A stretch of DNA of 44,608 nucleotides from an uncultured bacterium (GTDB taxonomy: Bacteria > Patescibacteriota > Minisyncoccia > Phycocordibacterales > CAIZLB01), in contig CAIZLB010000024.1 in assembly GCA_903933735.1 (NCBI GenBank), forward strand, positions 1 through 44,608, read 5' to 3'. Of the stretch, positions 3,561-8,250 are shown piece by piece. A program made the position numbers and the translations under genes. The notes under the pieces are model-generated. The model made no database searches and was not told the DNA's origin. It saw nothing but the letters and a program-made list of their open reading frames with translations. Within the stretch, counting starts at the first letter, position 1, and each line of letters starts with the position of its first letter.

Positions 3561-3851
3561 ATGGCTAAAACATCAGCACCTTGGGTGGCATTGTTGTGCG
3601 ATAAGTGCGGGCAACCAGTGTCAGAAAATAACAGCGTAGCAAAAGTTGAATTACACGCCTTCGGTAACGGGGGTGCGGCGATAGCTCGTGGTGACAGACA
3701 CCTTAACCCTGTAATAGGAGAACACCCTTGTGAAGGATCACCTTCTAGAGTCCAAAAGTTCAGAGATATCCGTAGTGGTGGGCGTGATACAGGATTCATT
3801 AATACCAGCCTCATGGGTCATTGTATTGACCCTGAACCAGATATTCAATAA
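3561..3851 (+). CDS. Small hypothetical protein with one CxxC
   Basis: 96-aa ORF (LLCDKCGQPV); promoter TTTACA-N17-TAATTT placing +1 at the ATG; followed by an intrinsic terminator. Confidence 0.65.
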   Translation: MAKTSAPWVALLCDKCGQPVSENNSVAKVELHAFGNGGAAIARGDRHLNPVIGEHPCEGSPSRVQKFRDIRSGGRDTGFINTSLMGHCIDPEPDIQ

Positions 3852-3876
3852 CTTTTTTCAGCGAAAAACTAGATAC

Positions 3877-3905
3877 GAGCCCTTCGAGAGTCGGGCTCTT
3901 TTTTT
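3877..3905 (+). terminator. Intrinsic terminator of the 3561 gene
   Basis: GAGCCC-loop-GGGCTC followed by T-tract. Confidence 0.85.
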
Positions 3906-3930: not shown

Positions 3931-4141
3931 CGGTGCCGCGTCGTCGGAATCGAAGCTTACAGCTTCAGTATACCTTTACCATTTTCTCGGACCTAAGGTC
4001 CTCAAAAATATACCGCAGGGGTATTTCTATTTTGATAAATCAAAATAAGTCAGGTAAAGCTTTTCGATGTCCTACACGCAAGCAAAACTATTTGCTTGCT
4101 TAGTGTCACATTAAAAAAACGTATCTCACGATACGTTTTTT
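3931..4141 (+). ncRNA. Candidate multibranched structured RNA, no family recognised; strand provisional
   Basis: Long-range pairs 3938-3941/4076-4079, 3949-3953/4064-4068 and CTTTACC 3974-3980 / GGTAAAG 4053-4059 enclose three hairpins (3989-4001, 4010-4024, 4028-4047). Then hairpin 4078-4099 and terminator AAAAAACGTATC-TCAC-GATACGTTTTTT 4114-4141. Confidence 0.55.
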
Positions 4142-4145
4142 CTTG

Positions 4146-4217
4146 TGCCACTAGTAGGAATCGAACCTACATCTATCCCTTAGGACGGGACTGTTCTATC
4201 CATTGAACTATAATGGC
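4146..4217 (-). tRNA. tRNA-Arg(CCU)
   Basis: Reverse strand GCCATTA...GTTC/GAAC D-stem, GTCCC-GTCCTAA-GGGAT anticodon arm (CCT), GTAGG-TTCGATT-CCTAC T-arm, TAGTGGC acceptor; CCA not encoded. Confidence 0.93.
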
Positions 4218-7428: not shown

Positions 7429-8250
7429 ATGAACGAGCAAGCAGCGATTGTAGACCCTATTAAAGCATATATCGATTTCTTTAATTTTTATATGACGGAC
7501 CCCACTTTGGCGACTACTGTAGCAAAAGGCTGGAAAAATCCAAAATGCACGCCGGGATTACTTAGCTTTATTCACCAATCGCATCCCGACAATTTTATCA
7601 AGGCAGCATGTCTGTTATTGAAACAAGTTCCTGTTACAGATATCGATTTCAGAACTGTTATTGAGATCTTTACAAAATCCGAAAGTGATCGAATTATATT
7701 ATCTTCTCTGATACCTATACTGGAACTGATTCCTGAAGGCCCAGATGGAATTAGTATTCCCGATACTGTATCAGTAGCAGTATTATTAACTAAACTTCAC
7801 AGCATATTATCAGATCCAGATTATCACGGACTTGCAGACCTTGAAATTGCAACAAGAATTATTATTAAATTAATTGGTATGATACCAGATACGCATTTAA
7901 ACTATAGAGGCACTCTGAGATTTCTAACCAGCGAACATTCAACAATAGTACAGGATCAAGTTAAAAATGTAAACGACAGAATACCAATCAATCATCTTAA
8001 TCTAGGACTTTTACTAGATGATCTCATCGAACACCCAGCAGGTACACTGATATCACAGGAGATCGAGCGTATTATCGAAAGAATACCGTCTGATCAACTA
8101 GACTATGATAAAATCATGGCGCACTATAATCATGAAAAAGCACAAGAGTCTCACAGGAGTCACGCGCTGCAACTATTGAAAAAGATGGACCAGGGCATTC
8201 TGATAGTAAAAGGCCATCAAATCCTCGCGGCGCTGAACAGCCTAACGTAA
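7429..8250 (+). CDS. Orphan alpha-helical hypothetical protein
   Basis: 273-aa ORF between a consensus promoter and a 13-bp terminator; quasi-repeated helical pattern (IPxxHLNY / IPSDQLDYDKI). Confidence 0.8.
   Translation: MNEQAAIVDPIKAYIDFFNFYMTDPTLATTVAKGWKNPKCTPGLLSFIHQSHPDNFIKAACLLLKQVPVTDIDFRTVIEIFTKSESDRIILSSLIPILELIPEGPDGISIPDTVSVAVLLTKLHSILSDPDYHGLADLEIATRIIIKLIGMIPDTHLNYRGTLRFLTSEHSTIVQDQVKNVNDRIPINHLNLGLLLDDLIEHPAGTLISQEIERIIERIPSDQLDYDKIMAHYNHEKAQESHRSHALQLLKKMDQGILIVKGHQILAALNSLT

Follow-up and report, generated by a model that had tools for sequence, protein, structure and literature searches.

Two kinds of described sites come close to the element reported here. The attC sites of integrons have a folded size of 57–142 nt (PMC2727003). 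For tRNA islands, the crossover takes place in the T-loop region of the target gene, which can also be a tmRNA gene; the 3′ fragment carried by the island keeps the target whole, and the displaced fragment marks the far end (PMC4383910). Horizontal gene gain in the small-genome Patescibacteria is poorly understood. The literature that we covered, with few preprints and subscription journals among it, contained no work linking integrons or attC sites, Parcubacteria or Patescibacteria, and tRNA sites.

Here, we analyzed a window of 44,608 nt (the whole stretch of DNA under study), which is contig C24 of the source genome G000, a 0.82-Mb assembly. A structured region behind one of its tRNA genes belongs to an apparently undescribed family of structured DNA elements of about 150 bases that is widespread in Parcubacteria. 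The evidence consists of sequence comparison, mostly of metagenome assemblies.

The structured region behind tRNA-Arg

The region 3931–4145 folds with a minimum free energy of −64.7 kcal/mol on the plus strand, compared with a mean of −38.6 (sd 3.7) for 200 dinucleotide shuffles, none of which reached the native energy (z −7.1); the minus strand folds with −68.9 kcal/mol (z −5.6). A sequence-only reading had described 3931–4141 as an unassigned, multibranched RNA and had proposed folding it against such shuffles. Its stems are present at the positions claimed, as seen in the sequence and in folds of both strands, and its failure to recognise a known family agrees with Rfam 15, by which known RNA families were ruled out: within the window only the two tRNAs reach the gathering score, and no weak match in the region was convincing. 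Also, a tmRNA or degenerate tRNA was rejected since ARAGORN calls no gene in the window other than tRNA-Arg and tRNA-Thr, and a single-copy intergenic RNA was ruled out by 14 partial matches in the source genome (DNA search), of which all inspected loci adjoin a tRNA gene. What stands of the unassigned RNA is a conserved, covarying structure without an Rfam name; its RNA nature is not established, and hairpins with T-runs in the spacers, island-end copies far from a tRNA and presence or absence among congeners argue for a DNA integration site. The strand was corrected: the structured unit is to be read on the minus strand, in the sense of tRNA-Arg. The resemblance of this strand to the 3′ end of the adjacent tRNA is real and the key to the object, and the tRNA-derived origin that had been offered as an alternative is supported: the element repeats that end once directly and once inverted.

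All parts of the unit are given in tRNA sense, on the minus strand. The target gene tRNA-Arg(CCT) (4145–4217; ARAGORN, Rfam RF00005) ends in the 3′ tail TTCGATTCCTACTAGTGGCAC, counted from the T-loop (4145–4165). The stem at 4114–4141 that had been taken for a terminator is indeed a terminator-like hairpin with flanking A/T runs (4113–4141; sequence and folds), placed directly behind tRNA-Arg. It is followed by the inverted acceptor 3′ strand of the tRNA (4101–4110; TGTGACACTA compared with GTGCCACTA, the reverse complement of the tail), by the hairpin P0 (4078–4099; GCAAGCAAA-TAGT-TTTGCTTGC), a type of hairpin that precedes P1-left in most family copies, island ends included, and by P1-left itself (4063–4075; GTAGGACATCGAA), which is the inverted T-loop and 3′ T-strand of tRNA-Arg. 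The left strand of P2 (CTTTACC, 4053–4059), its upper part with a UGA/GAG internal loop and the terminal hairpin GGACC-UUA-GGUCC (3979–4010), and its right strand (GGTAAAG, 3974–3980) lead to the junction GTATACT (3967–3973), which has the nearly invariant family form GTRYACTG. Then comes the hairpin H2 with a GTA triloop (GAAGCT-GTA-AGCTTC, 3952–3966), 5 of whose 6 pairs show compensatory changes, and with it a directly repeated tRNA 3′ tail, TTCGATTCCGACGACGCGGCAC (3933–3954), which has partly diverged from the present tRNA-Arg.

H2 had been regarded as a competing hairpin that disrupts the closing helix, suggesting a two-state RNA. In this form, the idea found no support: H2 forms one of the arms, itself conserved, of a three-way junction, and the fold backed by covariation contains it together with the closing helix. 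A second hairpin element of about 40 nt, TGACTTATTTTGATTTATCAAAATAGAAATACCCCTGCGG, is inserted into P2 at 4013–4052, where no other copy has one. The hairpin TATTTTGA-TAAA-TCAAAATA and most of ATACC-GCAGG-GGTAT fall within it; thus, three hairpins are enclosed as had been reported, two of which belong at least partly to the insert. The insertion accounts both for this picture and for the score of the window copy, which at 51 bits in the covariance model lies below that of its relatives. Second elements of this kind (GACTTAT-stem-ATAGAARTACCCTTGTG) were observed at several tRNA-linked places in the genome, separately in the stretches L004, L005 and L006; the one inside the window copy is oriented oppositely to the one behind tRNA-Asp.

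On the plus strand, an orphan ORF of 96 aa (3561–3851) is followed by its own terminator-like hairpin (3871–3905; sequence). It has no Pfam or NCBIfam match, and none of the 147 searched genomes of the order holds a homologue, by which it was rejected as cargo common to the family; it is possible cargo of this copy, and its stretch is absent from the congener G002. Elsewhere in the window, a 273-aa ORF (7429–8250) has no Pfam or NCBIfam match.

A repeat family with arms matched to its tRNA genes

A covariance model built on nine of the 14 partial matches detected 19 copies in the source genome, 9 and 10 in two congeners, and, among the order's 147 genomes, family matches in 68, the latter probably an underestimate since the model is biased towards the source genus. 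By a strict pattern scan of GTDB genomes 47 stretches were matched, and the named matches are of Parcubacteria type (Nomura-, Kaiser-, Taylor-, Zambryski- and Yonathbacteria, Paceibacterota). In a phylum-wide model search 10 candidates were scored per genome, so that missing matches mean little; a deeper sample of the class yielded 3 weak matches in other orders. Cores resembling P2, GTGTACAG and H2 were observed in four stretches from other orders of the class. The one in L273 follows a tRNA-Pro gene, has tail copies in both orientations and bears additional arms; for those in L239, L240 and L268 no tRNA was seen within 3 kb. It is possible that the family extends beyond tRNA sites.

In tRNA sense, the family copies consist of the tRNA 3′ tail, a spacer that often contains a terminator, the inverted acceptor strand, P0, P1-left, P2, which has a GA-rich internal loop and ends in a hairpin, the junction GTRYACTG, H2 with its GTA triloop, and RANTCC with the direct tail copy. 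In the fold supported by covariation, P1, P2 and H2 meet in a three-way junction. Compensatory changes, which the sequence-only reading had proposed to look for in relatives, were found in 31 of 34 pairs; 94% of the cells are paired, compared with 68% after shuffling and no more than 58% after sliding, and the covariation score is 0.654 versus 0.176 shuffled, values taken from an alignment that was fitted to the model and leans towards that structure. Comparing the ends of H2 with the tRNAs, we would place the element boundary near C56|R57 in the T-loop.

This conservation bears on the idea that the copies are decayed attachment-site remnants of large tRNA islands or phages, structured only through common origin. 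tRNA genes are classic targets of islands (PMC4383910), and some copies do bound islands. However, the covarying structure is intact across dozens of genera, compensatory changes appear to be maintained in young insertions, and genomes hold up to 26 copies, mostly of about 150 nt and free of island relics, which makes such an origin highly improbable.

Among 106 distinct copies, 94 have a tRNA or tmRNA gene on the same strand less than 260 nt upstream, and 4 further ones lie at a sequence edge; the median gap between tRNA and element is 64 nt. The targets comprise tRNAs for Leu, Lys, Ser, Arg, Val, Trp, Tyr, Ile, Cys, Glu, Met, Gly, Phe, His, Pro, Asp and Thr as well as tmRNA. P1-left matches its own tRNA with 10.41 of 11, compared with 8.08 for permuted tRNAs (permutation maximum 8.45); the respective values are 12.0 of 15 versus 8.4 for the direct tail copy and a mean of 6.59 of 10 versus 5.41 (sd 0.09) for the inverted acceptor strand. 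The family is thereby tied to tRNA genes by direct and inverted copies that are specific for the respective tRNA. In cases of disagreement between the tRNA and the distal tail, P1-left agrees with the tRNA 45 times and with the distal tail 4 times; 8 cases are ties. It is perfect in 72% of the copies with a decayed distal tail and in 62% of those with an intact one, and a match that survives distal decay is expected if cassette and tail travel together.

The same arms would have to be explained by a MITE-like, non-autonomous transposon inserting behind tRNA genes, whose staggered cut would duplicate about 17–21 bp from the T-loop to the 3′ end, while the inverted arm would guide it by pairing with the target. 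The best argument for this alternative, which we consider rather unlikely, is that near-identical cores carry arms matched to different tRNAs. The tRNA is left intact whatever its identity, and the direct copies usually stop at the tRNA 3′ end, both of which are in its favour. Yet a single insertion, with a target duplication of the same age, would be expected to be followed by decay of both the arm and the distal copy, and only the distal copy is seen to decay, which may speak against a transposon; furthermore, islands bounded by the element are several kb long, and no transposase was identified.

The spacers provide another discriminating feature, as a hairpin with a T-run separates tRNA and element in 44 of 82 copies, compared with 2 in shuffled gaps. 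Such a separation argues against a tRNA-linked RNA switch, in which the inverted tail would pair, within a read-through transcript, either with the 3′ half of the tRNA, spoiling it, or with the downstream tail, freeing it, while P2/H2 would sense something. The three tail segments in the order direct-inverted-direct, the strong structure with its covariation, and an inverted arm that keeps its match to the tRNA despite decay of the distal copy would suit a switch. Against it, the arm is also retained in elements 1.7–16 kb away from the tRNA, copies stand in tandem, and many tRNAs of one genome, as well as orthologous tRNAs in congeners, have no element. We therefore regard a switch as unlikely; if it existed, it would represent a new mode of tRNA gene control.

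Occupied and empty sites, islands and candidate enzymes

Both occupied and empty sites were seen. In the source genome about 17 tRNAs and the tmRNA carry the element, and the remaining tRNAs are without it. The tRNA-Met/tRNA-Asp locus, aligned in three genomes, has the insert in G000 and G001 and none in G002; at the position of the tRNA-Arg of the window, the tRNA of G002 runs on to a methyltransferase, with neither element nor orphan gene in between. Behind single tRNAs, element copies were also found in tandem, and the internal tails of these arrays are not better preserved than the terminal ones (5 versus 5).

Several islands end in an element. In G113, two elements with identical core sequence flank 7 kb with a DpnII system (L197:3195–10370), with the DpnII endonuclease, two DNA methylases, a HerA-like helicase and a DDE transposase as cargo. 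On contig C5 of G002 (L187:1–16330), a stretch of 16 kb between tRNA-Ser(gct) and an element contains genes for DUF3800, a Ccr-like serine recombinase, a PLD-helicase, an Eco57I-type methylase, a ParB-methylase and a reverse transcriptase, and is likely a defence island. Further inserts with the element at the distal end are present behind the tmRNA of G002 (1.7 kb) and in the source genome, where an acyl-carrier-like gene lies behind tRNA-Glu. tRNAs at contig ends of G002 are in excess (5/36 within 130 nt versus 0.12 expected), as indirectly expected if the sites are repetitive or variable. An excess of this kind was remarked for contigs of both G001 and G002.

The source genome encodes two tyrosine recombinases, one of which is of the XerA/XerD type (XerA_Arch 230 bits, cut-off 220). 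This protein reaches 124.6 bits with TIGR02249, under the cut-off of 265, and no integron integrase (IntI) was detected in this genome. Serine recombinases were rejected as mobilisers in the source genome, which has none, and no dedicated recombinase for the element was found. Since 140 of the 147 genomes have a tyrosine recombinase, mostly in single copy, co-occurrence with the element is uninformative. Many element-rich genomes contain a single one; for G067, which has elements, there was no PF00589 match at the cut-off used. In the 7-kb and 16-kb islands inspected there is no tyrosine recombinase, the larger one having the serine recombinase mentioned above. A Xer-type tyrosine recombinase is only a candidate for the acting enzyme. 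As a separate observation, many genes of large serine recombinases in the order lie near a contig start (L247–L256, L258, L261, L263, L264) and extend as far as, or into, the 3′ end of an opposite-strand tRNA gene, which suggests serine-recombinase islands at tRNA genes in this order.

Proposed cassettes at tRNA T-loops and relation to known systems

We lean towards reading the elements as folded, attC-like recombination sites of site-specific cassettes that are integrated at tRNA T-loops and mobilised in trans. The region in the window would then be a minimal cassette integrated at the T-loop of tRNA-Arg. It would start with the tRNA 3′ tail, keeping the tRNA gene whole, continue with the terminator, the inverted tail, itself interrupted by P0, and the hairpins P2 and H2, and end next to C56 of the T-loop, with the displaced older tail copy beyond it. 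In an excised circle or a folded single strand, the inverted arm could pair with the tail to form a branched palindromic recombination site, and a recombinase supplied in trans would move such cassettes, whether or not they carry cargo, into and out of the T-loops of tRNA and tmRNA genes. The circle, its recombination and the folded strand as substrate are what we infer from the sequences.

The family copies, tRNA linkage, matched arms, covariation and empty or occupied sites all support this cassette reading, as do the tandem copies, island ends, terminators and contig-end tRNAs. Several points weigh against it: no excised circle or junction was seen in the assemblies, which are mostly metagenomic, and no dedicated recombinase turned up; simple cassette exchange does not account for almost identical cores that stand behind different tRNAs, each with a fitting arm; most copies are without a gene; internal tails of arrays are no better kept than terminal ones; and some related cores in other orders were seen without a tRNA in 3 kb. 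More doubtful is the wider proposal that Parcubacteria possess a distributed integron-like system with T-loops as platforms, tRNA-programmed folded sites, a new 3′ end plus terminator, and defence cargo. If cassettes of this kind exist, a site family of dozens of genera and most kinds of tRNA would offer a handle on gene gain and swapping, restriction systems included, and would join attC as a second natural example in which folded DNA, and not sequence, appears to define the recombination site.

Compared with REP elements and MITEs, the element is likewise small, structured, repeated and non-autonomous, but it lies strictly at tRNA 3′ ends and its arms are specific to the host tRNA. Tycheposons are tRNA-linked integrative elements able to carry cargo, as is the element family; they are large and have their own recombinase, unlike the element of about 150 nt, and we know of no comparable structured 150-nt site for tycheposons and similar tRNA-associated elements. 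With tRNA and tmRNA islands of the Islander type (T-loop/J subsite) it shares the intact tRNA, the displaced direct 3′ fragment and the T-loop crossover. In contrast to these islands, it measures about 150 nt, is mostly gene-free without an integrase in cis, uses many tRNA species per genome, and bears a conserved branched structure and, distally, the tail in inverted orientation. Although the element is read here as working like both kinds of system, we class it neither as an integron nor as a tRNA island, because neither an integron integrase (looked for in the source genome) nor an R-box consensus, an attI platform or a cis-encoded integrase turned up. It differs from the integron attC site in that no integron integrase was seen, the tyrosine recombinase of the source genome being of the Xer type, in that the targets are tRNA genes genome-wide instead of a single attI platform, and in that the R′/R″ boxes GTTRRRY/RYYYAAC are replaced by locus-specific T-loop sequences at the element ends. 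Also, it has a tRNA-specific inverted box, the extra branches P0 and H2, and mostly no gene. Like attC, it is an imperfect palindrome of comparable folded size that is conserved in structure rather than sequence, with two pairing boxes and a variable terminal hairpin. Both kinds of sites stand at cassette ends and in tandem arrays, take their terminal box partly from the neighbouring unit, and are served by a recombinase in trans, which for the element is proposed here.
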